From Psococerastis gibbosa (taxonomy: Eukaryota > Arthropoda > Insecta > Psocodea > Psocidae), in the NCBI GenBank assembly GCA_963971405.1, contig OZ020487.1:21189371-21253370 (forward strand): a stretch of DNA of 64,000 bases, written 5' to 3'. The notes under the pieces were generated by a model. It was not told where the DNA came from. It was given only the letters and a program-made list of their open reading frames with translations, and did no database searches. A program made the translations under genes and the position numbers. This document shows, one piece after another, positions 45,190 through 64,000 of this stretch. How positions within the stretch are numbered: position 1 is the stretch's first letter; the number at the start of each line of letters is the position of its first letter.

Positions 45190-45959
45190 GCAGCTGCCAT
45201 ATTGTTGATTTTGATTTTTTTTTTACATCTTGGTGTCGCCTATAAGTTACATATGGGTAACGGCCCTCTCCATAATAGACTTTACGGGACAGCCCCGGGA
45301 TGGTTGGCTTATGATTAGGGGGGTATTCCACATACGTACAACGTCAATGAAAATTATGAAATTGATGGTGGCAGCAGACATTTTTACATACTAAAAATTC
45401 TGCTGCCACCATCAATTTCATAATTTTCATTGACGTTGTACGCAGGGGGCTGTCAACGCTGTATAAAATGGAATTTTGCCTTTCTTCCACTAAGAACCGT
45501 CTTCTGCTAAGTGGACGGAGATAATTTTTTCCGCACCGCGGCGCTTGCAGCGTTCCCGCTTAAATTCAAATTTTGGTCTGTAACATTTTAGTTGCCATAT
45601 TCCAATGGAGATTAATATTATTTTTTTTATATTCCATTATAATGACAGTTGACTGTATTTCAACGCTTATATTATGTAATGTGCCATTGGCAGTGTAAAG
45701 TCTAATAAGTTTACGTATGATAAGTAGATAAGTATCGGTAATACAGTAAGCAGCGTTAGTCAATTGCAGTTCAAACGTTAAATTTCCACATTTCAATTTT
45801 ATTCATATACTTTTATACTGTACTGAACATTCCCATTAATACGGTAGTTTATTTTTACTCTTTGGCACTACAGTCTAGAGCCCGTAATGTCCTAAAAAAC
45901 TTTTTCATAACCCGTACGTAGCACATTGTTTATTACTCTAGATTATTATTAGTAACCCA

Positions 45960-46110
45960 TTCGTCCTATGTCGAATGCCTAATACCAACGACCAAAATTG
46001 ATTGTTTTTTCCATTAGCAATCCGTTAAACGTCTTCGATGTCAACTTATGCTATCTACTATACGAGGGATAATGGACACTATGAGAGAATGAGCCATGCT
46101 CAACATGGAC
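45960..46110. repeat. dispersed repeat S, copy 3 (weak)
   Basis: Shares aatgcctaataccaacgacc-like and cttcgatgtcaac...gataatggac blocks with 19022-19290. Diverged, so the match is tentative. It lies inside the large transposon, before the transposase gene. Confidence 0.4.
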
Positions 46111-46391
46111 AAAATGTACAAATGGTCGTCCCACTACTACCTATTCCTTCTCAATCCCTAGGACTTATCACCCTTTTGACTGGCATATTAATTGAATTGA
46201 AACAGCCCACAACCGAGCAATATCGGACTCTTCTTTTGCTAGCTTTCGGCATTTTTCTACTAAAACTAAAATCTAAAATATAATTGCCAATCGAAATTAG
46301 CCATGCGACATCTGTTGGATTACACTCGTAGCTAGCCCAAGAAGGACCCTCCATTGCCGCCATTATTAATTTCCATGGTAAATATTAAAGA

Positions 46392-49300
46392 ATGGTTAGA
46401 ACAAAAAGAAACTGTACTAATTGTTGCGTTTTTAGTTGCAATTCAGCCCATTACAATAGTCCGGGGGCTTCGTTCCATGAATTCCCTAAGGTGAATAGCC
46501 ACAATGTGGTAATAGAAAATAAATTTGGGGTGAAAGAGAAAATTGATGCTAACAAGGCATGGCATCACATTTTGAAAATGGGGAAAACTGCTTCCGTGCA
46601 TATGAAGGTGTGTTCTAAGCATTTTACTGAAAGCGATTTTTTTAATCATGGTAAGTAAATTCATTAACTAAATTGTGCATGTCAAATAGAATATCAATGT
46701 TTATTAGAGCCCAAATAACCCTAGAAATTATAGCAATTCAGCCGTACTCCCTGGCATCCTGTGCAATGTTCATGGTTACACTAACTTATATCTGTTTGTT
46801 GGGGCTGCTTTGGGTTCTAAAATTATTTTTGATGACGCTGGTTATATATAGTATAACTCATTTGACATTAGGCATTAAAAGTGCGCAATGGGCTACTTAA
46901 CAACTTTTGGAAGCAAAATGTATTTCAATAATAATGGACCTTGTATTCATCACCTAGAAATGTCATTGCCAATATGTTCTCATTACTATTAATAAATTGC
47001 TGCAAACTATTGTCGGAGGACCGTACTAATAGTATTATGCAGTGAACTTGCTTGAGTGGCTTTTCTGCTACCTACGTAAACTTGATCGACTGGTGTCTTT
47101 TCATGGCATACATGGTTTGTTACATACCCATATTAATTACGGTAATGTGGCATGGGGTCACTCTGTCAGGAGTAAGCAGGGTAACCTGCTATTACTACAG
47201 AAAAGAACTATCCACATTGTTACAATAATTAATTAAGGGACTTAGTATTGTGTTGTATATTGTATTATTCAATTAGCTAGTAGTGGTTGTATGTAAAGTA
47301 GTATTGAGTGGTAGTAAATACACCAAACTATCTTCTTCTAGTCACTTCATCCTCTCGAACTTCTTCCGTACCTACCCGATAGTTTCCATTGTTGTTGTTG
47401 GAACTCAGAAGCGCCGCGCGCTTATTCAGAATCTCCAACTTCAGATCACTGATTGTCTATTGCCTTTGGTGCTGCATTCTTTCGTTCTTACGACAACTTC
47501 TGAAATTTTTCTCACTTTTTAGATCTTTAATAGTTCGATCCACACGGTAGTAGTTTGACAACCCTTCTAGGTAAATACTTTTGTGCCCAACACTGTAGTA
47601 GTTTGACAGCCCTTCTAGGTAAATACTTTTGTGTCCACGTCCTGGTTATGTTTTGCTCTTTATTTTTATTTTTAGGCGGACCCGTTCAACGCCGAAGATT
47701 AAAAAAAGGAGTAGTGCCTTCAGTTAACTTGCCTGTTGCCTCCCACGATCCAAAAAGTCCAAGGAAGACCAGGAAAGCTCAACTGGCATCTCAACGAATT
47801 TTAAGAAAGGCACGAAGGCATATGCACACCTGTTCTGTGCCTATTGAAGAAATCGCTGAACAGAACCCCACGCCCGATGATTTGGTTGCTGCCAACGCAC
47901 TATTAAATTTGTTTGCACCAGTTGAAGGTACGATTAATTTATTGACTCTCGTACAATTTTGCAAAGTTTAGGTCTACCAACAGGCGCAAGTGAGTTACGA
48001 AGTAAAGCCGGTGAATTAGCTACAGTACATGAACTAAGAGAGGATAGACAATATATACAAATACAAATAGAAATACAAGTATTAAAGTCCTTGACCAGGG
48101 TGTTTCAGGGTAACAGCGACAATCCTCTAGTAGTGGAGTGCCGTAAGCTTCATACCTCGGAATCCAGGGACAGTCCATGAATATTTATAAAAAATTTGAA
48201 AATGTGTTGTTAGTGGACATAGAGAAATTTAAAAAAAATTTGCCCGCTCTCAATTTAGAGCTACAGGGTGTGGCAGCATAACTTCCTGCTTTGTAATGCG
48301 CGCCATTCGGTCGGTGGATGTCGTAGCGAAGTGTTTATGGTCTCGTTCGAGAGGTGGGACTGTACACTTTTGTCTTATGCGTACATATTTCTGAAGATTA
48401 AAACATTTAGATCACGTCCCCCATTCTCGATACATTGAGTATAAGTGGCGCGCCGTAATTCAAAAAAATTGAAAGCCTCGGAATTCAGGGCCAGTCAATG
48501 AATATTTATAAAAACTTTGAAAATGTGTTTTCATTAGAATATAGAAAAATGTTTAAAAATGTTTTTTGCCCGTTCTCAATTTTTAAATACAGGGTGCGAC
48601 AAAACAACTTCCTGTTTTGTAATGCGCGTCATTCGGTCGGTTTTTGTCGTAACAGAGTGTTTGTGGTCCCGTTCGAGAGGCGGGACTATAAACTTCTGTC
48701 TTACATAGTTTTGATTATCAAAACATTATGATCACGTCAAATACTTTTGTAAAATTATTATTGTATTTATAAGATTTTTCTTTTGCAGATTTCATAGCGT
48801 TCTGCGGACATTTTATTACACCATGTCTCCATACTAATCTTAGTTTTTTTTTTATTTACTAGAGACAAGTTCCGAGCATGCTGCACAAACTCCAATGGAG
48901 GGAGGGTTAGAAGACAAAGGTGTTCAAGTCACGAGTGGCAATATTTATGTACCGTTCTCGTGGAAGTTGAAGACAGAGGCGAAATTGAATTCCCTTACGG
49001 GTCTCCCAACCTTCCGGATACTTGATTTTATTGTCGACCTGGTGAAAACCATTGTCGTCGACAAACGAATTCATAGGCTTACTTTGAAGGACAGGGTCAT
49101 TTTGACATTCATGAAGCTGAAACTGAATATTAGTTATGCAGTTCTCAGCATTCTGTTTGGCAATCTGACCCCAACGTCTTGTAGGTCTGAATTCAAGAAG
49201 ATGGTGGTCGCTTTAAGCGTAGTGCTGAAGCCTGCAATACCTTGGCCTTCTAGAGAGGAAATATCTCGAAACCTACCAAAATGCTTTCGTAATTTCCCCT

Positions 49301-49830
49301 TGGCTCGTGTAGTTTTAGATTGCACGGAAGTTGCGATCCAAAAGCCTAAATGTCTCCCTTGTCGCCTTAAGCTTTATTCTCATTATAAAGGTACTCTCAC
49401 TCTAAAATGGATGACTGGTATTTCGCCAGGCGGTTTAATTACCTTCTTGAGCAAAGCTTACGGGGGTAGAGCTTCTGACAGCACCATCTTCCTTCAGAGT
49501 GGGATACTCGATATACTGGAAAAAAATGACTGTATTATGGTGGACAAAGGGTTTCTTGTAGATGTCCCATGTTTTGATAAGGGTATTGACATAATTAGGC
49601 CTACCTTCTTACGCGGAAAAGTTAAATTTAGTAAAGAGGAGGCGTTAGACAATAGAGATATTTCCAGGGCCAGGGTTCATGTGGAAAGGGCTAATGCGCG
49701 CATAAAGTCCATGAACTTTTTTTCACAAAAATTTGAATGGTCACAACTGTCTATTGCTGATAATGCTTTCACTGTTGTCTGTGGCTTAGTGAATTTAACG
49801 TCACCTCTCCTTGCTGACGATAAATTTTAG
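46392..49830 (+). CDS. THAP-domain DDE_Tnp_4 transposase
   Basis: Three exons join in phase: 46392-46650, 47676-47927 and 48863-49830, with GT-AG introns, giving 492 residues. Residues 1-87 are a THAP zinc finger: C12, C16, W57, C74 and H77, with the SxxHF motif CSKHF. Exon 2 gives a basic linker (VQRRRLKKGVVPSVNLP). Residues 242-291 look like the HTH_Tnp_4 helix-turn-helix (RLTLKDRVILTFMKLKLNIS). The DDE_Tnp_4 catalytic core follows, with D323 in LDCTE, D398 in MVDKGF and E445 in HVERA, plus YGGRASDS. THAP should bind the element's ends and the DDE core cut and join DNA. No stop or frame break is seen, so it may still be functional. Intron 2 carries a diverged tandem repeat. Confidence 0.9.
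47547..47639. repeat. 48-bp tandem duplication in intron 1
   Basis: gtagtagtttgaca(a/g)cccttctaggtaaatacttttgtg occurs twice, starting at 47547 and 47595. It lies just before the exon 2 acceptor of the transposase gene. Confidence 0.85.
48152..48735. repeat. diverged 320-bp tandem repeat in intron 2
   Basis: Two direct units begin near 48152 and 48472. Shared blocks are cctcgga(a/t)t, atgaatatttataaaaa, acagggtg(t/c)g, cgcg(c/t)cattcggtcggt and gttcgagaggtgggac. The units differ at many positions, so the duplication is old. A repeated open frame (MRAIRS-like) hints at a worn transposon piece. Confidence 0.75.
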
Positions 49831-50475
49831 GATTACATCTGTATGTTTCTTTTCAATGGTTAACATGAAAAAAAGTCTTTATAGTCTTATTGTTCGCCAT
49901 TTGTATTGCAATAAAGTCGTTCATTCATTCATTCAATTCATTCAATTACCACTGAATTAGAAAGGTAATTAAACAGGCAATAAAATGGATATTTCACTAT
50001 TTTGAAATAATTTCTCTATACGGAGCATTTGGTCAGCATTTTGAACGGAGGGTGGTTTTAGTTTCTAGGGTTTTTAGAAATCCCCCTGAAACGAGACAGA
50101 ATATGAATTACGGCACTGAAATGCTGTATCAACACATAGTGTTACATGTCCCCATTGTAACAGTATTTCAGTGCCGTGAATCCTTACTTTTCTCTCGCTG
50201 CGTCGACTGATTATGTATTATTGTTCTAGTCTAGCCTGGGGGTTTCGACCTCAGACTTCAACTCAACTTCCCCAGCCCGTGGATGCACGTCTGGTGTGCA
50301 ATGGGTTTTCAGAAGTTTGGGGCACGTAATTTTTTTAGGGATGTGTGATTTACTCAAGTTATCATACTGTAGTTAACCAAAAGACCACACCCTGTTTGAA
50401 ATTATTTCTAAAATAAGGTACTTGCCATCTAAATCACTGTTCGTTATTTTTCAATACATTCAGATGTGCACACAT
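49831..50475. other. 3' flank of the transposase gene
   Basis: Contains caataaagtcgttcattcat at about 49909-49930, a likely poly(A) signal region, and then a (CATT)n run. An inverted pair around tttcagtgccgt lies at about 50110-50175. No gene is seen. Confidence 0.45.
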
Positions 50476-50802
50476 CTAATTTTTTTATGGTCTTGGAACA
50501 GCCAGAAAGAAAAGTGTTCTTTTGCCATCATTTCCTCCTACAACTGATGCAGCATTTGAGCACCTTAAACGAGTGTACCTGCAAACTCAAATATGGCTAG
50601 GTCATGATCTAAAAATTTTAAATTGGGGATGGAAATATATCAATAACACGTTCATCCCAATAACAATGAATCAATCGCCAGCTCCGGATAATTTATTACA
50701 AATGCTATTTTGTAACAGCAAAAAGGAATGTGGAGCTGCTTGTGGGTGCCGAAAGAGTGGCTTATATTGCATGTGTTCAATGCTTCCCCTATTATTGAAA
50801 TA
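50476..50802 (+). pseudogene. Cys-rich (CXC-like) coding fragment
   Basis: The forward frame reads LLPSFPPTTDAAFEHLKRVY, QIWLGHDLKILNWGWKY, APDNLLQMLFCN and CGAACGCRKSGLYCMCS. The WGW block, AP..LL and closely spaced cysteines recall a poorly described Cys-rich protein type seen in several invertebrates, often near mobile elements; that link is from memory. The Tc1 insertion at 50803 cuts the frame, and joining across it gives an immediate stop. Whether it belongs to the large transposon or to another inserted element is unknown. Confidence 0.45.
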
Positions 50803-51639
50803 CAACCCAAAGGCAGAGTTCGCACACCTGAAAAATGTACAACCCCTGTTTTTAAAAATAATAATAATAATCTTATTATTTGATATTATAAAGAGTACTT
50901 GCTATCAGTCGATAGAGGACATGATAAAGTATATCTCGCTACACTTACTTCAAATATAAGAATGGTGAGTTCAGAAAAAAATTTCTTCATCCGTTCGTGA
51001 GGCATATTAGTTCGCACACTTTTACTGAACCCCCTTTGGGCTAAATAAAGGCCAAATTTTACTGCAGATTGGAAAATGTACACTTCTGTTTTTATGTTTA
51101 ATACCTGAAAAGTGTTGTAAAATATTGTAAAAATAACATCTACAAAAATGCCTAGTGAAAAACCACTTTCTGAAGAGACAAGGAAGCAGATCATATATCT
51201 TCACCAAACCGGCGAATCTGCGAGGAACATTGTTCAGCAGCTGCTTCTACCACCTTCAACAGTGCAGTCAATTATCAGCCTGTTCCGTGAAAAAAGCAGT
51301 AGCCATCCTAAACGAAAAACATACCGAAAAACTCCCATTCCTCTGAGAGAACGTAGTTACCTGAAGACCTTAATTCTTCGAAATAGGCGCGGAACGTTGA
51401 AGGAAATCACTGAAAAGTGGTGGGAGGCTACTAGTGAAGCTTTCTCTATAAGATTTTGCTGAAGGGTCATGAAAGAAATAAGTTACAAATTGTTTTCAGC
51501 GAAGAAAATGACCGCGCTTTCAAGGTGTCAAACACGAAGGAAGTTCCAATGGGCTAGAAACATTTCAAAATGGGCCAAAGACCGCTGGGAAACAATTATT
51601 TGGTCCGATTAATAACGGTTTGTTCTACATATGGGCAAT

Positions 51640-54600
51640 TGTGGTGTCTGTGGTTTTCTAGAACCACGTATTCCGGAAAAACCATTAGTTGGAGTTGTAT
51701 GGTCGTAAACAATAAATAAAGATGGATGAACGATTTACCGAATTATTAATTTATTACTATATTATTTAATCCTGTACAATAATTAATGGATATAACAGAA
51801 TAGTATAATGGGTAAACTACAGAACAGTGGCGCAGTCGGTAATTAGCCTACTATATTTACTATTTTGCGATTGTTTTTGCTTATTGCTTACTTACTAGTG
51901 CACGTGGTACTTTTACTTTGCCACAATGACAGATCTAAAAGACGTTTTGCAAGCCAATTTGAATATGCAGAAGACGATGTCGGATATTTTGAAGGCTTTA
52001 ACTAGACCCCAAGGGCAAGGTTCACCTGCTCAACCTGCTACAGGTGGGGGAAAGAGTTTTCCAAAACTTGATAAATTTATTGCAAGTGACGACATTGCGT
52101 TACACATTGAAAAATGTAGTGCAGCTTTTAAACTTTACAGCATTACTGATGATAGCACGATGCTGCAATTGTTTATGCATAGTTTGCCTACTGATTTATA
52201 TGGACTTACTAAGGATTTGCTACATCCGAAAACGCTTGCAAACTCACAGTATGATGATGTGACTAAACTTTTGCAAGGTCATTTGCGACCAACACCTTTA
52301 GTCATACCTTCTCGGCATACACTATATAAACGCCGACAGCAAGAGGGAGAATCATTGGCAGCTTATTCGGCATCTTTACGCCACTTAGCTGTTCCTTGCA
52401 AGTATGCTTCCAGCGTGTTATCAGAGGTCCTCAGGGATGTTTTTGTGGCAGGTTTACGAGATCGTCACATTTTAGATCGTGTTCTTGAGGAAGATAACGC
52501 TGATTTCGATAAGATTTATGCTCTGGCGGTGTCTCTTGAATCTGCGTCGTCAGGGACACGGGAATTGCTAGTGCAACCTTCTAGTTCCGTTAATAAAATA
52601 AAAAACAAGTCTTTTCAGAAGAATAAAGTTACTCAGGGCAAGAAGGAATCTACTTCAAAGCAGTCTACCTCTACTACGAAGGGGAAACAGATTGTGTGCT
52701 ACAGGTGCGGTATGGTTGACTCGCACAAGGCTCCTGATTGCAAGAAAAAGAACTTAAAATGTACAAATTGCGGACGCGGCTCTCATGTGGCAGCCGTCTG
52801 CCTTTCAAAGAAAACGGTTCACGCGGTGGAAGATTCATTACCCATTTATACATTGTATTCCGTGACATCCGTGAGTAATGACTTTTATAAACCTTACATG
52901 GTTCCACTGCAAGTAGGGAATAAAACAGTATCGTTAGAATTGGATACTGGAAGTGCTCATACTATTTTAAATGAACATTTATACAAAGACTTACAGTTGA
53001 ATGCTCCGTTGCAACCTACAAAGACTCAGTTCCGGGGTTATGGTGGTACGATAATCACACCTAAAGGAGTTGTTACAGTGCCTGTGACTTATAAAGCCTC
53101 GACGGCTAACTTGCGACTTTTTGTAGTGCCAGGTAACCTGCCTCCACTCATGGGACGTGAGTGGTGTCAAAGTCTGCAAATTTCACCTGTTTTTCATGCA
53201 ACCGCTACAATTACGCCGTCTGCCGAAGCGAAGCTACAGAAATTGTTAGCGGAGAACAAGGAAATTTTTAGCAGTGGCACAGGTATCGCAAAGAATTTTT
53301 GTGCTGAATTACAGTTAAAAACTGGCGCTAGTCCTAAGTACTTAAAGGCGCGACCAGTACCATTTGCTTTGAAGCCAAAAATTTCGGCCGAGATTGACCG
53401 TTTAGTTGCAGAAGGAATTTTACGCCCTGTCGAAAGGTCGGACTTTGCGACTCCAGTGGTTCCTGTACTTAAGGGAGACGGGTCCATACGTCTTTGTGCT
53501 GACTACAGCGTTACATGCAATCAGCTCATTGAGGTTCCTCAACATCCAATGCCAGATATTGAAGATTTGATGTCTACTTTGGGGCATGGTAAATATTTTG
53601 CCAAACTGGACTGTCGTACTGCTTACTTGTCGCTACCTGTTACACCAGACACCGGTAAGATTCTAACCTTAAATACACACAAGGGACTTTATCAACCGAC
53701 ACGTCTGATGTTTGGGGTCAATGCGGCGCCAGCCATTTGGCAACGTTATATTGAAGGTGTTCTACGAGACATCGAAGGAATTTACGTATTTTATGACGAT
53801 ATGTTGGTTCAAGGAGATACAGCTGAACAGCTACTTAGTCGCCTTGCATTAGTGTTTTCTAGATTGAAAGAAAATGGACAGCGACTAAATTACAGTAAAT
53901 GTGAATTCCTGAAATCTTCCGTCCAATACCTGGGTTACAAAATGTCAAAGGACGGCCTGCATAAGACTGATGAAAAAATACAGGCTATACTTAATGCTCC
54001 AAAACCTCAAAATGCCAAAGAGGTAAAATCATTCATGGGAATGGTAACTTTTTATGCACGTTTTATACCAAATTTAGCTACGATAGCCAAGCCTTTATAC
54101 GAGTTAACAAAGCACGATACAAAATTCACATGGACTAAACAGTGCGACCAAAGCTTGAAAGCTTTACAAAAGGAGATAGTTTCAGAGAAGGTTCTTGTGC
54201 ACTACAGGCCGGACCTTCCAGTAATTTTGTCTGTGGATGCTAGCCCGGTCGGAATTGGGGCGGTGATCGCTCATCGTTTCAGTGATGGCTCAGAGAGGCC
54301 TATAGCGTTTGCTTCTCGCATACTTTCACCCAGCGAACGCAACTACGCCCAACTCTGTAAGGAAGCACTGGCGATTAAATGGGGCGTTTCCAAGTTTTAC
54401 CGTTACCTGTTGGGACGTCGATTCTGTCTAGTTTCAGATCACAAGCCTTTGTGTCATATTTTTGGGCCTAAGGCGAAGTTACCAGTTATTACTGCTACAC
54501 GACTTCTACACTACGCGCTGTACTTGCAACAATTTCAGTTCGACGTGAAATACAGAAAGAGTGATGATAACGGCAATGCAGATATGCTTTCACGCCTACC

Positions 54601-56411
54601 TGTTACATCGGAGACCTTGTTTGACCTGGATGATGTTGAAGAATTCCAAACCCATCATTTACAGGTTGTGCCAATCAAGCCTGTGGATCTGGCGAAGGCC
54701 ACCAGAGAAGATCCAGACTTGATGCCTATTCTTGAAAAACTACGTGCTGGTGAGTCATTTCACGATGGCAAATATTCATTGCATGCAGGATGCATATTGC
54801 TAGGCATTCGTGCGGTTATACCAGCAAAATTACAACGCACAATACTCCATGAACTGCATTTGGGTCATATGGGAGTAGTTAAAATGAAAGCGTTAGCACG
54901 TTCATACGTGTATTGGGAAAATATTGACCAAGACATAGAGAATTTGTGTCGCAATTGTGTCAACTGCGCTGAATACAAAACGCAGCAAAAAACCCCCAAG
55001 GTGCACTACTGGGAGTACCCCGCAAAACCGTGGGAGAGAATACATATAGATTTTGCTTCGTATGCAGGCAAAATTTTTTTAATAGTGGTTGATTCTTATT
55101 CTAAATGGCCTGAGATTTTTCCGATGTCTTCAATGACAGCTAATACTACTACTACTGTTTTAAGAACATTGTTTGCTCGATATGGTCACCCGATTTGCTT
55201 AGTTTCGGACAATCAGTCGACGTTTGTGGGAACGGAGTTCCAAGCATTTTTACGTAAACTTGGTATTCGGCATCTTACGTCGCCCCCACACTATCCAGCA
55301 AGCAATGGACAGGCTGAACGTTATGTTGGAAGTATGAAACAAGCTTTACGCTGTCTCCAGAATCAGAACAATTTATACGACAACTTACAAGAATTTTTAT
55401 TTGCATATCGCAGAGCTCCTCACGTGCTTACAGGGCACAGTCCTGCAAGTTTATTTTTGGGGCGAGAGATATCGTCACCTCTTACTATCTTACGCCCGAA
55501 TATTGGTCGGGCCATCTCAGAGCAGAGAGACACCCTTTTCCAAGATCCTGTTTTCCAGCCTGGAGAAAAAGTGGCGGTACGTAACTACACTACGCCGTTA
55601 CGGCGTTGGGTCTTTGGGACCATCATCAGCAAGGATGGGGCATTACAATACACGGTGCAGGTGGGAAACGAGCTGTGGCGTCGACACGGAGGTCAAATAC
55701 GTCCGGTGGGACAGGACATCCCTCTCCGTGAAGAAAGAGCATACAAGCAGCCTATCGCGAATCCTGGTCCTACTCCAATTCAAGCACCGCCCACTCCTCA
55801 GCGAGATTCAAGTATTATGGATACTACTTCGGGCGAGCAGCTGACTACAGTAATTCAAGCACCGCTCACTCCTCAGAGAGATTCCATTATTATAAGCTCT
55901 ACTTCTGGCGAGCAGCAGAGTACATCTAGGCAATCGCTCACTCCAAGGCGAACTTCGATGGCTAATATGCAGATGGAGGCACCTTCGCCTGCTGCAGAAA
56001 CAGTGGCGGCTCGTCGTCCTGTCAGAAATCGCCGAGCTCCACAGCGCTTGAATATATGAAAGTGCGCGTTACGAGTGCATGGCCTGTCGAGTGCAGTGAT
56101 TTTTTTTTTCTTCTCTTATGGTATGTTGCTAGTGTACTGTGGCACCCGCAGAGCTCCCCTGTCCTTTGTCTATTACTATGCCTAGGAGGTTTGCAATTAT
56201 TTTTTTTTCTACAAGGGGGAGGACTGTGGTGTCTGTGGTTTTCTAGAACCACGTATTCCGGAAAAACCATTAGTTGGAGTTGTATGGTCGTAAACAATAA
56301 ATAAAGATGGATGAACGATTTACCGAATTATTAATTTATTACTATATTATTTAATCCTGTACAATAATTAATGGATATAACAGAATAGTATAATGGGTAA
56401 ACTACAGAACA
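51640..56411 (+). mobile_element. Gypsy-type LTR retrotransposon (Mag/K02A2.6-like)
   Basis: Two 187-bp LTRs (51640-51826 and 56225-56411) start TGTGGTGTCTG, end TACAGAACA and look identical by eye. The flanks are GCAAT on both sides (51635-51639 and 56412-56416). A primer-binding site (tggcgcagtcggtaa) follows the 5' LTR, and a purine tract (aagggggaggac) precedes the 3' LTR. One gag-pol frame lies between them. The element looks whole and very young. It sits in the Tc1 transposase gene. Confidence 0.95.
51926..56059 (+). CDS. Gypsy gag-pol polyprotein (element gene)
   Basis: A single frame of 1377 residues. Parts in order: gag-like region (about 1-250); CCHC-type knuckles near 258-293 (CYRCGMVDSHKAPDC and CTNCGRGSHVAAVC); aspartic protease with DTGS near 339; reverse transcriptase with FYDDML near 622; RNase H near 760-890 (LSVDASPVGIGAV); integrase with an HHCC finger near 975-1015 and a DDE core starting HIDFA near 1040 with SDNQSTF and NGQAERYV. 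A short proline-rich tail follows. The arrangement is that of Ty3/Gypsy elements. This is an element gene, not a host gene. Confidence 0.95.
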   Translation: MTDLKDVLQANLNMQKTMSDILKALTRPQGQGSPAQPATGGGKSFPKLDKFIASDDIALHIEKCSAAFKLYSITDDSTMLQLFMHSLPTDLYGLTKDLLHPKTLANSQYDDVTKLLQGHLRPTPLVIPSRHTLYKRRQQEGESLAAYSASLRHLAVPCKYASSVLSEVLRDVFVAGLRDRHILDRVLEEDNADFDKIYALAVSLESASSGTRELLVQPSSSVNKIKNKSFQKNKVTQGKKESTSKQSTSTTKGKQIVCYRCGMVDSHKAPDCKKKNLKCTNCGRGSHVAAVCLSKKTVHAVEDSLPIYTLYSVTSVSNDFYKPYMVPLQVGNKTVSLELDTGSAHTILNEHLYKDLQLNAPLQPTKTQFRGYGGTIITPKGVVTVPVTYKASTANLRLFVVPGNLPPLMGREWCQSLQISPVFHATATITPSAEAKLQKLLAENKEIFSSGTGIAKNFCAELQLKTGASPKYLKARPVPFALKPKISAEIDRLVAEGILRPVERSDFATPVVPVLKGDGSIRLCADYSVTCNQLIEVPQHPMPDIEDLMSTLGHGKYFAKLDCRTAYLSLPVTPDTGKILTLNTHKGLYQPTRLMFGVNAAPAIWQRYIEGVLRDIEGIYVFYDDMLVQGDTAEQLLSRLALVFSRLKENGQRLNYSKCEFLKSSVQYLGYKMSKDGLHKTDEKIQAILNAPKPQNAKEVKSFMGMVTFYARFIPNLATIAKPLYELTKHDTKFTWTKQCDQSLKALQKEIVSEKVLVHYRPDLPVILSVDASPVGIGAVIAHRFSDGSERPIAFASRILSPSERNYAQLCKEALAIKWGVSKFYRYLLGRRFCLVSDHKPLCHIFGPKAKLPVITATRLLHYALYLQQFQFDVKYRKSDDNGNADMLSRLPVTSETLFDLDDVEEFQTHHLQVVPIKPVDLAKATREDPDLMPILEKLRAGESFHDGKYSLHAGCILLGIRAVIPAKLQRTILHELHLGHMGVVKMKALARSYVYWENIDQDIENLCRNCVNCAEYKTQQKTPKVHYWEYPAKPWERIHIDFASYAGKIFLIVVDSYSKWPEIFPMSSMTANTTTTVLRTLFARYGHPICLVSDNQSTFVGTEFQAFLRKLGIRHLTSPPHYPASNGQAERYVGSMKQALRCLQNQNNLYDNLQEFLFAYRRAPHVLTGHSPASLFLGREISSPLTILRPNIGRAISEQRDTLFQDPVFQPGEKVAVRNYTTPLRRWVFGTIISKDGALQYTVQVGNELWRRHGGQIRPVGQDIPLREERAYKQPIANPGPTPIQAPPTPQRDSSIMDTTSGEQLTTVIQAPLTPQRDSIIISSTSGEQQSTSRQSLTPRRTSMANMQMEAPSPAAETVAARRPVRNRRAPQRLNI

Positions 56412-56896
56412 GCAATCAAGGACCCAAAGTCATCAGGATGAAGCCTGAAGCTTATCAGCCACAATGCATAAAACAGACGGTCAAGTTCCCGACCAGTGTA
56501 ATGATATGGGGATGCTTGAGTTCGAAAGGAGTTGGTCACCTGTACTTCGTAGAAGGCCCTGTCAATGACCCTAAGTATTTAGAAATTTGACCTTTTACCG
56601 CCGATAAGTGCCCTACATCCCGAAGGCAATTTCATATTTCAGCAAGACGGGGCCACTTGTCACACTACAAATTCTGCTAGACAGTGGTTTGGTGAAAACA
56701 ACGATTCGGTTTCGACATGGGTAGCTAATAGCCCAGATTTGTCACCAATTGAAAACCTTTGGCTCATCACGAAGAAGGTAGTAGCCAAAAAGATCCCGAA
56801 GACAAAGGAAGAACTGAAATCCATCCATCCAAAATGTGTGGTGTGGTATTACACCAGCGATGTGCAGTAATATTGTTTCTTCAGTGCTCAAAAGAA

Positions 56897-57194
56897 CCTA
56901 ACATCCAAGAAAAAATGGCGCCCGGAGCCCAACTGTCGTACCCTATATGGCGGAGCCAGAATAGACTAAGAACGGGGGTCACAAGATGCCGTGCGAACTT
57001 GTGTAGGTGGGGACTGGCGGAGGTCTCAACTTGCGAGTGCGGACAAGTCCAGAGCGACGGACACCTTCTGGTATGTCCAACGCTGAGAGAAGCCGTGTCC
57101 CAGAGGGATCTTTTGGACGCCAACGACAAGGCCATCCAGGCCGCAACGTTTTGAATCAACGTGTCCTAGGCCCGGACACGTTAAGTAAGTAAGT
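56897..57194 (+). mobile_element. 5'-truncated LINE tail in the Tc1 element
   Basis: The forward frame reads NRLRTGVTRCRANLCRWG and CECGQVQSDGHLLVCPTL, the C-terminal Cys-His stretch of many LINE proteins. The end is a (TAAG)n tail. It is flanked by a perfect 14-bp duplication, AGTGCTCAAAAGAA, at 56883-56896 and 57195-57208. Confidence 0.9.
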
Positions 57195-57686
57195 AGTGCT
57201 CAAAAGAATTGCCGCTGCTATAAAAAGCAAAGGAGGGGTATCGCAGTACTGATAGACACTTCACTTTGACTGTGCGAACTATTACGCCTCCCAAGTTCTT
57301 GAAACAAAATATTAATTCTGAATTGTTCATGTGTATTATGTTTGAAGTTTCTGCTGCTAGATGTACTTTCTCATGTTCTCTATCGATTGACAGCAAGTAT
57401 TCTTTAAAAGACTACATATCTATAAAGTTGATTATTATTATTTTTTTAAAACAGGAGTTTTTGAGGTGTACGAACTATTCTGCCTTTGGGTTGTAAATGA
57501 AGTTAAAGTTAAATGAAGAAAGTATTTGATCTGTACAGATATGTTATGTGATATGAAATATATAAATATATTATTAATGATTTAATATTAATTATTTACT
57601 TTTCTTTAATAACCTCCCTTTTTTTCCCAATTAAATTATTTTTGTTAATATAGGAATTTTCAATATCTGAATTATGATAATTATCA

Positions 57687-57905
57687 CCCGAACCCATTTC
57701 CTGAACTAGCCCCGGTCTGACGCTGCTTTGAGCTCGGCCATTGTTTTTCCTCTTGCTTCGGCGAGTTGTTCAATCCTTTCCCCGAGGGTTGTCCTCGGCC
57801 TGCCGATGGGTCTTCTTCCTTGTGACCTTGCTTCCGCCATCCTCCGGGTGGTCCTGTTCTCGCCCATCCTTTCATTCCTTTGGCGGCTGCTTGTTCTCCA
57901 TTCTT
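57687..57905 (-). mobile_element. 5'-truncated LINE tail, same family as 42627
   Basis: The reverse frame reads NERMGENRTTRRMAEARSQG, GRPRTTLGERIEQLAEARG and FRKWV. It closely matches the copy at 42627-42902, on the opposite strand. It lies in the large transposon, outside the Tc1 element. Confidence 0.75.
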
Positions 57906-58390
57906 CTATCTATGATATGTTAGTTGTTTAAATAAATAAATTTATTATTAATTAATGTACATTAATTATTTACTTTTTTAATAAACCCATATTTTCCCAA
58001 TTAATTTCTATATTTGAATATATGTATATGTATATATTCATTTCATATCACATACAATTTTGATATTCATTTTACTAACTGAATTATTGTTATAATTACT
58101 ATTATTAGTTAAAAAAATTAGTACCACTTTTTAGTTTATACTATTAGCTAAACATTCCATTTGAAATTTTTCAATTTCAGTCCGAGGTTTTCATGTTTTT
58201 AACGCCCCAGGGACTCTACTCACTATTAGGATTATGTCTGATATAATATTTCAATTTTGTCTGCTTGAATTAGCAGGTACCCCGCACACGTTCGTTTAAG
58301 GGGGGCTAGAATATGTGTAAAAAACTTTAATAGTGTAAAAAATAAACGAACAATTACTTATTATTTATTTTATTAGCAACCCTGCTCTTT

Positions 58391-61363
58391 CTAAGCCTTC
58401 GAACAAAACTGATGGAGTAAGTGGCTGAAATAATTACTTTTTAGTCTTACTACTAAATCCCGGCAAAATACTTCATCGAAAATAATATTTTCAATAGACA
58501 TCGCATTGTCCTTCGTATTGAACAACACGAAGTCACATTCGGGTAAATTTAAAAGCAACATTCCTAGTTGTATTTGGCTAAAATAGGAATGATTCCTTTT
58601 AAGGAGGTAACTCCAACTCGGAGTATCGCCCCCGTCCTTATTCTCCACTTTATTTAAATAGCCTCCTGGCCGTCTGGACAAATGCTCAAGCATAGCATGC
58701 ATTGGCAGTGTCTTGCCCGACCAGGGACATTTAATTTCGAGGAGCTTAAGTGGCTGATTTTGGTCATTGAATATGACCCCATCAGGAGAATATCCCATCC
58801 AGGGATGATCCTCTACAACGACAAGGCCACACTCAACGACGCGTTGCTCGGTTTCCCGCGCATAAAACTCCCGTGCCACGGGTTCATTGTCCACGCCGTG
58901 TTGAACAATTTTGCTTGTGAAGGGTTTGGGCATAGCCAATAGCATGGCTTTTTCAGCCCAATTGCCCTTCTTGTAAGTATAAACACTGCGGCAGCGACTG
59001 CCAGTTATACGCCACCGGCGCTCCTTCATCCATTCGCTGCGAAGCATTGCCGTTCTTGTGCACACTTCTACAGAATTAATGGCAGTCAGAACATTTTTCC
59101 TGTAAAACTCACGGCAGCATAGCAGCGGCTCTTCGATTTGTACCTGTAACATTCATGACGGTTACCATAGGCGTAAATTCACAAATTTCTGAAGGGGGGG
59201 GGGGGGTTTAGGACCCTAAGACTTCTATTTTATTTGTTACTCTTTTCAGGCCCGTGATTAGCTTTGCTAACGGGGGCTGTATCCAGTTTAAGGCCTAGGG
59301 CGTGAAGAAGTGTGAAGTCTGCGCAAATTATATGACGTACTGGGGGAAGTTCCAATTAATAGAAAAACGTTGTGCGAAGGTTGAATTAATACATACTGCA
59401 TATTGAATATTATTAGTTCCTGGCGCAAGTCATACAAGTATATGCAGCGGGCAATGTCCTGCCACTCTGTCAAGCCATTAATTGAAGATACGGCACACGA
59501 AAGATTGTTTACTGCAATAGTTGCTTAAACCTACATTCATAACATCGAAGAAACTCAGTGGTCACATTTTCAATAAATATTGAATACATACCTCATGAAG
59601 GTAATTCATATTCCGGTTTTGTCCGTTATCGCAAATAGTTTTGAACTCCTCTGGGGATTCAAAGTATTCCTCCATGAACACATTAACGTCCACATCGAGA
59701 ATTCTATCGAACCCTCTGTAATGCCGCGCTAGAGCACTCCCTTCTAATTTAGTGCATTTTTGGTATGCCTCTTCGGCATTGAATGCATTTAAATGAAGCC
59801 CAGCGTATATTTTTTCAGTAGCCTAAAAATTAATGACAATTGAAATATTATGTTTGATCACACGACGTTGTTAAGTGAGCCCTCATTTTTTTCCTTTTCC
59901 AGGAAGCAATTTGTAGTCTTTGTCCACATTTGTCTACATTAACAAACGCATAGGCCAGTTATAGGCAAGCAAGATCTGAGCAAGATACTCACTCGACAAT
60001 ATAATACTGACACAAAGGGTTGCAGCTTGGCAGTATGAATTGGTATCAAAACTCTTTGAATATGCGACGGCAGCATTATGAAAACTGTATGCTACTATTA
60101 TGTTACCATATTATTGTGAACATCCCAGATAATTACGTTAAAGTTCTGAGGCAGTCACCCTCACATGCTACTGACTGCGATCACGATACCCTTCTCGGCT
60201 GTATAATATGCAGTGAATAATATTTAAATCTACCAATAATCTGCTCTGTAATTGAGTTACTTACAGCTCTTGTTTTATTGTAGCAACAAAATGTTTCCAC
60301 AGGTAGGGCTGCGTACTTCTCTGTTGCTTCTCTCTTGAGGGAACTCCACAGACATCGCATATCAGTGCTAGAAATCTTATCGAGCTTTGATATATCCTTT
60401 GAGCTGTGAAATAAAAAAATATTGTCATAATTTGTTCTTAGCATAATCCAAATATGCGAGACACACAGAAGACTAAGTGAGCGGATATGAAAAAGAATTA
60501 ATTACACCTTAACAAACGGAAAAGAAAAGGATAAAGTGATGGCTTACCTGCCTATGAAATAAGAACTGTGTAAGCTCTCTACGTGCGGAGGGGGGGGGGG
60601 GGTGTCAGTTTCGAAACACATGCGAAAAAAGTACTGGCTACGGTCTAGGTTTCAATACTAGACTGTTTTAGGATCAGCCCCCCACGTATGGGCTACTTAA
60701 TTGTCTTAAATGGGGGCATGAACAACAGGCAATTACAATGGAAGCAATAGGGGACACTCACACCTACAAGACAAGTGCACATGAGTTTATGAGGCGACAA
60801 TACGGTGAGACCTTGTAGGTCACAGGCCAGTGTGAGCGACTGGATGTAATTTTGCAATACAAGGCTGAGCATTTCACACACAATTTTCCAAACGAACTGA
60901 GAGCGGCGATACACATATTACTATGGGAGTCCTATCTATCATCTAGCCTACTAACAATTGGAAATTGGCAAAAGTGCAATTTTCCCCAATCGCGAAAAAA
61001 AAAATACGAATGGTATAATATAACTGTTACTAACCTGAAGCATGTCAATAATATTGCCATGACATGTTTGCACTGTCCTGCAGCACCCGCTTTGCAGCTA
61101 CATATAAAATTTGAGGGCTGCCCAGAATATGTAATAGTGCCCTTCACGGTGTGAGGCTCTGAAGAGAGAGCAGAGCTCTGTTGGACAAGCCCGTAAATCT
61201 TTATAAACCTTTCGTTGCTCTCTGTAGGCACCGTTCCACAAAGCAATACGTGGTTTCCCAAATACAACTGTTCGCCTTCCGTGTAATTACGACTGCCAAC
61301 AGACGCATTGCACACAGCCAATATATCAGGCAATTTGATCCGAAGGGGCGTGCTTTCGTACAT
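58391..61363 (-). CDS. SWIM zinc-finger and YqaJ-type nuclease protein
   Basis: Four reverse-strand exons join in phase: 61363-61035, 60403-60265, 59822-59592 and 59143-58391, giving 483 residues with GT-AG introns. Residues 88-100 form a SWIM finger (CSC...CKH). Residues 274-480 match the YqaJ/lambda-exonuclease-like fold: RRWRITGSRC at the start, D354 in GYSPDGV, E369 and K371 in LLEIKCP (the D...ExK nuclease core), and YFSQIQLGMLL. Proteins of this type accompany ISL2EU transposases and probably process DNA ends or resect strands during transposition; that role is inferred. The ATG at 61363 is the first in frame, but the frame stays open back to an acceptor-like ttttattcag near 61410, so an upstream exon is possible. 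No break is seen. Confidence 0.85.
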
Positions 61364-61918
61364 GGCGAGCCGAATAATAACACTAATATATTTAACAACA
61401 CCACTGAATAAAATAAAACTTTAAATGAACACAATATATTACAATAAACTTAAAAATAAAACAATTTATTAACGTGGGAATCATGGAAAAAACAATGATG
61501 GGTCATTCGTACTCAATAGAAGGCGGCGATATTTTAAAGGCGGTGGAATTAGCTTCAGTCGCCAATAGTGCCCAGTTGAAAATGCAAACAAAACAATTTC
61601 AGTAATGGCTGGTAGGCTGGATGGCGTGCGTCCTTCAGTGATCAGTCCTTGATTTTGGACTATCTTTTTGAAAATAAGTTTCAAATTGAGATTTTAGTGA
61701 TAGTTTCAGAATTTGTAAAAAAATCATTACAATTTTTAAAATACATTTTATTCCCATGAATATTTAATTTGACATTTAAATATTTACAAAAGAATTTAAC
61801 TTGAGCTCTGTTGTTCAAGGAAAGTGGACGGAGAAAAAATTTCCGCTGCGCGGCGTGGCGCTGCTATCGCGAACTGAATCCCTATCCCGGTGACGAGTCT
61901 AGTTATCTGTTGTCTATG
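61364..61918. other. right subterminal region of the large transposon
   Basis: No coding frame. Holds the promoter side of the nuclease gene and, at 61822-61875, gtggacggagaaaaaatttc followed by a GC-rich tract that mirrors the left subterminal region at 45511-45550. Confidence 0.45.
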
Positions 61919-62150
61919 GTTGTACGTATGTGGAATACCCCCCTTAACGGGTGCCTCGTAGGCATATTATGGCTCCCGCCGCTCCTATCTTTATGGTAAT
62001 AGTGTAGTGTATACAAACATTACACTCATTACAGTTACACAAACAAATTACAAATGTTGAAACTTGAAAGTTGAAATTTACAAAACCAGTAACGGTTTTC
62101 TAATCTTTTTCCGTGATATTTAATCATTTGAGTTCATCAGCCACCTTAAA

Positions 62151-64000
62151 ATGAGTATCAGCGTCCCACCAGAAATGTTTTATGGCCCTCCATCAACACG
62201 ACAAAATGAAATAGAGAAATTGTTGAAAAAAAAACCATTACCCAGAAAGTTGGGATTGCCGCCCTATCTGAAGGGTTTACTTGGCCCTTCAAGAACATGG
62301 AAAGTCTTCTCAAAACAGCAAGATGCATTGCACTTTACAAAAGATGGAGGTAAAGAACTCATGGCCTTTGCCTTTGAGCATGGGACAGGTCAGCGATCAT
62401 TTTTAGCCTGTCATCCAATCATGCTATGGTTTATTGGAATGCAAAGATGTCAAAATAAAAGATGCACATATGAAATAATACAAGAAACGAGCAAATGCAA
62501 ACTTTACTTAGACCTAGAATATGAAATCGAATATAATTTAGCGCATGATGGCAAACGAATGGTGGAAACGGTAATTGTCATGGTTTGTCACAAGCTTTAT
62601 GAGCAGTACCGATTGAATTGCTCTAGAAATAAAGTTCTTGACCTTGATTCTAGCACAAACACAAAATTTAGCCGTCACTTAATATTTCAACTTGAATACG
62701 CAGCATTTGAAAATAATTACGCTGCTGGGAATTTTGTCAAATCTATCTGCAGTGAAATAAATGGTAAGAATCCAATTAAATTACTGTTATCGTACATGCC
62801 TGTCAGTCGGTCTTTTACATGAAGAGAGCGCCCAGACCGATAGTTTGTACATAGCCATTTGTCATTGTCCAGGATTGTCATTTAACCTTTACCCATAATT
62901 TGTAATAATAATTTCCGTGCCCCAATAATCTCATATCTCGTTCGGAATTAACAAAAATGTATCGCGAATTTTTCTCACTGAACGAAAATACGGAACTGTC
63001 ATTACTAAGTTGAAGTAACCATTGAGCGACACTGCATTTTCTGGCTATGCTTCCAATGGCATGTAATGCAGTCGGAGGGTAAGAAAAGCCTCTGTAACTC
63101 GACTAGGTTGGCTTAGAAGTATAAAAGTTATTATCTATTTATTTAAGAATGAATTATAACGCCTGGTTATGGCAAATTGTTGACTTGCTAACAGTTAACT
63201 TTGGTTAAAGAGGTTACCTCCTCGTTAGAGCCGAAATGAGAGAATATAGAATAACTTGACTTAGTGGGATTGGAACCCTCAATCTACGCCTAACTGGGGC
63301 GTCGTCCAGCTTTCTCTATATTCTCTAATTTCTGTTGCCAGTTAGCCTACCAGACACTGAATCGTCTTGATCTTTCTTACTTTGAACGCACCCCTACTAT
63401 GTATTGTGGCTGCTTAGCTTAATGGAGAGTAATTTATATCTGTTACCGTATTGTTGCAGGTGCCGTGACTAACGAGGAGCTTATGCATCAAACTTGCATA
63501 AAATATTGTTTATTGGAAAGCCAGGTCCAAGAGCTTCTTATTACAGATCGAAAAGGTATAAAAAAGCATTTCATTGACGAAGGTGTTTACACAAGAAACA
63601 GACACTTCCGACTTCTAGGATCAACCAAACTTCATAAAAATTCGCCGCTCGTCATCAGCGAAAGTAATATATTTAACCCAATGAAAAAAGAAGAATATGC
63701 CCACTTCCTCTCTTCGTTAGTTACTTATTTTGATAATGAGATCCGTATGACTCTTAACTTCGGACCTATCATACGCAGTGGAAAGCAAGAAATGGTGCCG
63801 CGCTTAGCTGTCACCGACCCAAACCCAATTCTCCAACCATCAGGTCAAACTGGTCTTGAAGACTTTATCCGACAGGTGGGTTTTTTAACAGTACTACTTG
63901 TTAGATTTACTGATCGTTATTCTAAAAGACTAAAATTGAGTGATTGGCCACCAGAAACCCATACTGTCCGTTTTTTATACCAATCAAGTTCGGTGATAGT
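62151..64000 (+). CDS. PRIMPOL: primase-polymerase PrimPol, 5' part
   Basis: PrimPol reprimes DNA synthesis ahead of stalled forks and bypasses lesions, in the nucleus and mitochondria. Two exons are in the window: 62151-62763 and 63460-63875, GT-AG, in phase, giving 343 residues; the remainder is beyond the right edge. The archaeo-eukaryotic primase motifs are all present: motif I D121-x-E123 in CKLYLDLEYE, motif II SRH at 174-176 in KFSRHLIFQ, and motif III D244 in HFIDEGVYTRNRHFRLLG. The QTCIKYCLLE and EYAHFLSSLV blocks are also recognisable. The zinc-knuckle and RPA-binding parts would lie in later exons. The ATG at 62151 gives about seven more residues before motif I than the human start. 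The coding exons are free of insertions, though the gene begins about 230 bp from the large transposon nest. Confidence 0.95.
63030..63145 (+). repeat. tRNA-derived SINE, family U, tail only
   Basis: In PRIMPOL intron 1. It shares cattttctggctatgcttc, ctctgtaactcgactaggtt and ggcttag with the SINEs at 23757 and 35000. The tRNA-like head is missing. Confidence 0.6.

Follow-up and report, generated by a model that had tools for sequence, protein, structure and literature searches.

How can a transposon whose genes point to one group of elements be bounded by a target duplication of a length that this group is not expected to make? The question is raised by positions 45443-61918 of a 64,000-nucleotide stretch of the Psococerastis gibbosa genome (assembly GCA_963971405.1, contig OZ020487.1), hereafter the window, which corresponds to C12:21189371-21253370; loci are named by contig (C1, C3, C15 and so on), and comparisons were made across the 409-Mb genome. 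The initial annotation described this interval as a single DNA transposon with a THAP/DDE_Tnp_4 transposase and a YqaJ-type nuclease, flanked by an 8-bp duplication, although ISL2EU elements make a 2-bp one. We find instead that the interval consists of two nested transposons, and that the break points belong to a different element than the genes. We are nearly certain that an ISL2EU-type two-gene element (B) inserted into a short P-like element (A), and that A made the 8-bp duplication; what was observed directly comprises the ends and the duplication of each element, the corresponding uninterrupted sites, the open models of both genes and the start of a P-type gene within A. The unusual combination of the two genes with an 8-bp duplication is thus a consequence of the nesting, whose layout is as follows.

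45318-45442: left part of a foldback (palindromic) miniature inverted-repeat transposable element (MITE), broken by A; 25-bp perfect terminal inverted repeat
45435-45442: left copy of the 8-bp target duplication GTTGTACG, made by A
45443-46284: left part of A, P-like and non-autonomous; recurs in short copies; the first codons of a P-type gene lie near its inner edge, on the minus strand
46283-46284: left AT target duplication of B; the site is uninterrupted in short A copies
46285-61564: B, the two-gene ISL2EU-type transposon, beginning with TGCCAATCGAA and ending with TTCAGTCGCCA; the same ends occur at other places
61565-61566: right AT target duplication of B
61567-61918: right part of A, comprising its terminus and the 5' leader of the same P-type gene
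61919-61926: right copy of GTTGTACG, made by A
61927-61943: right remainder of the same foldback MITE; TTA repeats at 61944-61946

The two parts of A add up to a non-autonomous element of about 1.2 kb that is abundant in the genome, as each of its ends has 210 matches at up to two mismatches, compared to none for a reversed control. With the region 45314-46394 as a query (40 of 1150 candidates scored), most scored matches start at 45442-45443 and extend, whole or split in two, to 46284; two further matches (L019 and L020) begin within the palindromic repeat. With the right end as a query (40 of 241 scored), the segment 61564-61918 is likewise found elsewhere, in many cases at a place already matched by the left part, to which it is directly joined. 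Short copies with matching flanks are 1193-1711 bp long. Among 41 two-ended rows, from which the window copy is absent and two of which share a right end (L016), the 8-bp flanks agree at seven or more positions in 38 and at all eight in 36; the second L016 row is one of the three without matching flanks. In the window, the eight bases reported by the initial annotation do immediately flank the interval 45443-61918, and in L063, a copy of the host MITE that no element interrupts, GTTGTACG occurs only once at that place. Since the flanks of the short copies match and L063 carries the octamer once, we regard GTTGTACG as a true target duplication, of the length characteristic of the P superfamily. 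An apparent tandem array of A, in which left ends and right ends take turns at intervals of ~1.3 kb, is found at C1:7743856-7750367.

The 25-bp perfect inverted repeat that surrounds the nest (45318-45342 and 61919-61943), together with its TTA flanks, was also considered as the ends of the two-gene element (45318/61943), but this candidate was rejected, because the repeat belongs to the host MITE. Uninterrupted relatives of this MITE exist elsewhere in the genome, with variable outer ends and flanks; the TTA at 45315-45317, seen in the window copy only, may be the MITE's own duplication.

The ends of B recur in pairs 10.4-10.5 kb apart at eight other places, namely C1:31.93M (twice, head to tail), C1:13.65M, C3:9.57M, C3:36.26M, C12:40.29M, C19:12.30M and C21:0.80M. 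The first copy at C1:31.93M (beginning at C1:31928712), which was read whole, is B without the gypsy-type insert described below, at 99.94-99.96% identity; its neighbor was read at its start and right end, and the six further copies at their ends and by exon matches. The two C1 copies are joined directly head to tail (C1:31928712-31949727) with CAT between them, an arrangement that could be real or an assembly error. AT precedes all nine left ends and follows seven of ten right ends (the tenth belonging to a copy on C20 without a matched left end), and it is present on both sides in five of the seven single copies read at both sides, which is the 2-bp duplication of ISL2EU. A 3-bp AAT duplication was ruled out by the TAT found to the left of the C19 and C1:13.66M copies.

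The site that B entered is preserved in other copies of A. The sequence ATATAATAGTGCCC, in which AT occurs once, was found in all 58 short-A loci searched (L002-L030 and L032-L060) and, counted by rows, in 39 of 41, the other two having base changes there and no insert; the window reads ATATAAT, then B, then ATAGTGCCC. The site is also read through by a P-type copy on C15 (L084) and by the A copy at C1:17.33M. Conversely, the 15 additional B-end loci fetched (L069-L083; nine with right ends and ~1.5 kb beyond them, six with left ends and ~85 bp beyond; ten of the 15 are pieces, of 111 bases or with 1.5 kb of flank, from six single copies) contain no sequence of A, which occurs only in the window's own locus. 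At C1:31.93M, which lies outside this set, the left end of B and the end of a distinct A copy are 26 bp apart.

These data bear on the idea that the whole interval is a single autonomous unit of 16.5 kb, bounded by an 8-bp duplication, and that the 1.2-kb copies are internal deletions of it. The ends and the 8-bp duplication are indeed common to the short copies, and P elements often occur as short copies with internal deletions according to the available part of PMC7776569. However, B occurs independently at eight other places, flanked there by its own AT and, in the loci fetched, without A; the duplicated AT falls exactly on the inner junctions; and the transposase gene that begins within A is another one, of P type, which continues across the site of B. 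We therefore give this explanation next to no credence, and with it falls the assignment of the genes and of the 8-bp duplication to one element. Nor do the true ends lie a few bases inside the apparent ones, as the initial annotation had considered: because B sits within a P-like non-autonomous element, its ends are found 842 bp further inward on the left and 354 bp on the right.

Both genes of B can be modeled as open:

46392-49830, plus strand: transposase gene, exons 46392-46650, 47676-47927 and 48863-49830; 492 aa with THAP, HTH_Tnp_4 and DDE_Tnp_4 domains
58391-61363, minus strand: YqaJ gene, exons 61363-61035, 60403-60265, 59822-59592 and 59143-58391; convergent to the transposase gene

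The start codons and splice sites of both models are predictions; with them, the transposase reads without a stop across GT/AG sites and the four YqaJ exons read through to a stop codon, in agreement with the initial annotation. In Pfam, the transposase matches DDE_Tnp_4 (3.5e-33), THAP (6.7e-11) and HTH_Tnp_4 (3.7e-8), all over the cut-off, and the last YqaJ exon matches YqaJ (1.3e-15); these are the transposase domains and the second gene of ISL2EU. The last YqaJ exon also matches exonucleases of solved structure (2.5e-6). A search of the PDB with the last transposase exon gave no match up to E 1, and Pfam gave none for five of the eight proteins submitted (two YqaJ exons and the frames 50480-50887, 46029-46280 and 62151-62822). 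Of ten near-identical copies, among them the broken one on C20, eight have a full-length, open last exon of the transposase gene and nine a full-length, open last exon of the YqaJ gene. A convergent YqaJ gene lies near 40 of 64 compared transposase places, nine have one on the same strand and 15 have none. The proportion of 40/64 overstates the pairing, since this set was chosen by hand (64 of 124 transposase places and 63 of 151 YqaJ matches) and the omitted rows are mostly repeats of a family of ~32% identity and weak YqaJ rows; the included members of that family lack a close convergent YqaJ gene. Diverged DDE_Tnp_4 families of ~33% identity, as at C14:4074775-4078584 and comparable places, seemingly have two YqaJ-like frames nearby, one per strand.

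B itself contains two further elements, one within the other:

50803-57493: Tc1-like element in B, with inverted arms; TA at 50801-50802 and 57494-57495
51640-56411, plus strand: Ty3/gypsy-type long terminal repeat (LTR) retrotransposon in the Tc1-like element; GCAAT on both sides

The Tc1-like element encodes a Sleeping Beauty helix-turn-helix (HTH) domain (51121-51459) and is also present in the C1 copies, in which the site of the gypsy-type element is empty. The latter has LTRs that are 100% identical (51640-51826 and 56225-56411) and contains reverse transcriptase, RNase H and integrase domains. A 108-aa frame of B at 50480-50803, cut off by the Tc1-like element, has relatives at 43-45% identity within frames of 1487-1585 aa elsewhere and is probably a fragment of another element. 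Directly to the right of the nest lies an open frame (62151-62822), which we take to resemble PrimPol.

If A is non-autonomous, which enzyme mobilized it? A retains the initial codons of a transposase gene of the THAP/P type. In the C15 copy (L084, C15:20972700-20979700), the right 449 bp of A are common to the 5' end of a P-type gene at 94.9% identity, and this gene has an open frame of 1145 aa (L084:424-3858) with the THAP, RNase H and GTP-binding domains of P-type transposases (PF21787, PF21788, PF05485) and, at the C-terminus, a Ulp1-type peptidase domain (PF02902, 2.7e-9). Two right ends of A have P-type genes 1306 and 1308 bp inside them, distances that run to the nearer border of the matched domain. 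At C1:17332011, a third P-type gene is enclosed by two ends of A that are separated by 8.1 kb; there, A is continuous from the left end past the B site, the stretch read near the right end matches neither A nor L084, and the gene seems to have inserted later, into the right part of A.

An 8-bp duplication also fits hAT elements, and the CAGGGG start of A and its flank consensus of about gTTnnAAc resemble the hAT end and target consensus. Domain searches listed 121 P-type places and scored 150 of 913 hAT candidates; when 53 of the former and 70 of the latter were compared with 101 of A's right ends (100 from the 210 matches plus one), three P-type places and one hAT place fell within 9 kb inside such an end. 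The single hAT place lies ~3 kb inside a lone right end (C1:24601956-24605216). Against a hAT-like A stand the first codons of a THAP/P-type gene within A, the open C15 gene with its P-type RNase H and GTP-binding domains, and the two P-type genes at the same distance inside right ends of A. On the strength of the gene start in A and of the right-end P-type genes we rejected hAT as the owner of the 8-bp duplication and consider a hAT-like A quite unlikely.

Several observations nevertheless weigh against a P-like A that carries an ISL2EU-type B. The initial annotation was right that clear inverted repeats are missing, and this holds for both pairs of ends, neither of which aligns locally better than shuffled sequences. 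The ends of A have only CA...TG in common, and thus A lacks the terminal inverted repeat of the P superfamily. Its link to the P-type gene is one-sided, as it concerns the right end only, and the 3.1 kb that follow the C15 gene did not contain the left end. The ends of B are inverted at seven of 12 positions (nominal p 0.018) and those of two different relatives at nine of 12 (nominal p 0.0005, with the length chosen afterwards). They start with TG (TGCCAATCGAA and TGGCGACTGAA) and have no inverted repeat that begins with GG. Three right ends lack the flanking AT, namely the C1 tandem junction with CAT, the C12 copy with TT, which could be AT with the last base of the element lost, and the C21 copy with an eroded terminus. 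Finally, the context A|AT|T is not seen: among the five copies with AT on both sides, a small sample, A stands before the duplication in three and T after it in none.

For B, such deviations could mean that it represents a lineage of the DDE_Tnp_4 superfamily outside ISL2EU. In the available portion of the description by Han et al. (2015; PMC4482050), ISL2EU elements have terminal inverted repeats of 6-259 bp that usually start with GG, insert in the context A|AT|T and have a mean length of ~4.8 kb, whereas B starts with TG, is barely inverted, lacks this context and is ~10.5 kb long. On the other hand, the length of B is inflated by the nested Tc1-like element (and, in the window, by the gypsy-type element), and the AT duplication, the THAP, HTH and DDE domains and the YqaJ partner fit what this source reports. 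Since the GG start is qualified there as usual, it does not strictly define the group; and since the same source classes groups by the composition of the duplication, and ISL2EU by the duplication itself, the missing A|AT|T context does not prevent us from filing B as ISL2EU-type. A separate superfamily lineage is accordingly very unlikely in our opinion, and the best-supported reading is that B is a new ISL2EU-type family in this genome. The initial annotation had named copies with a 2-bp duplication and standard ISL2EU ends as the finding that would speak against its proposal; copies with such a duplication exist, but their ends are not of the usual GG type. A new lineage is thus not needed: the window does hold an intact-looking two-gene element of ISL2EU type, and nesting accounts for the 8 bp.

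For A, the missing terminal inverted repeat leads us to call it P-like or P-derived rather than a standard P element. It is possible, although we propose this tentatively and would not favor it, that A and its presumed mover belong to a P-derived lineage that lost the terminal inverted repeats yet kept exact 8-bp duplications at many sites, and whose mover combines a THAP/P-type transposase with a C-terminal Ulp1-type peptidase. In that case, the 3' end of the P-type copies would be expected to resemble CAGGGGGCTGTC and to be followed by an 8-bp duplication. A literature search for a P element transposase with Ulp1 yielded a single paper, which judging by its title concerns Rep endonucleases.

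The history of the locus can be read from its layers, each with a duplication of its own. A palindromic MITE received A, which has GTTGTACG on both sides; A would be moved in trans by a P-type transposase, presumably encoded by the P-type gene described here, that cuts with an 8-bp stagger. B, which already carried the Tc1-like element (duplicating TA), entered A: its THAP and HTH domains may bind the degenerate ends, the DDE_Tnp_4 domain may make cuts staggered by 2 nt and join the element at AT, and repair would leave AT on both sides. The YqaJ protein belongs to an exonuclease-like family and presumably helps in end processing or repair. The window copy of the Tc1-like element received the gypsy-type retrotransposon, with duplication of GCAAT. 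This nesting removes an apparent exception to the rule that the length of the target duplication goes with the transposase group, and it illustrates that nesting can imitate a new transposon lineage. It also provides an ISL2EU-type family with several near-identical copies in which the tested exons are open, useful for asking what role YqaJ has in transposition, as well as a pointer to a P-like family without visible inverted repeats.

How do the two elements compare with known systems? A resembles the P-MITEs of Anopheles gambiae, described in the available text of PMC1562414 as short P-derived elements with 8-bp duplications, and the deleted P elements of PMC7776569, in being short, present in many copies, flanked by exact 8-bp duplications and in keeping the start of a P-type gene. 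It differs from those described in these partial sources by having no detectable terminal inverted repeat (theirs are 13-31 bp, with 6-8 mismatches in two Anopheles subfamilies), by a left end that is not linked to a full-length copy and by the C-terminal Ulp1-type peptidase domain of the open C15 gene. B has a DDE transposase with an HTH and two genes in common with PIF/Harbinger, which differs, according to the accessible part of PMC4482050, in its TWA duplication and its Myb/SANT second gene. From ISL2EU, a member of the PHIS superfamily (PMC4482050, PMC9179366, as far as these texts were available), B departs in its TG-starting degenerate ends, the absence of A|AT|T at five sites, its length and the one head-to-tail pair. 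It nonetheless shares with ISL2EU the AT duplication, the THAP/HTH/DDE transposase and the YqaJ gene, which accompanies most autonomous candidates in the portion of PMC4482050 at hand, and judged by these sequence features B fits the published description of the group.

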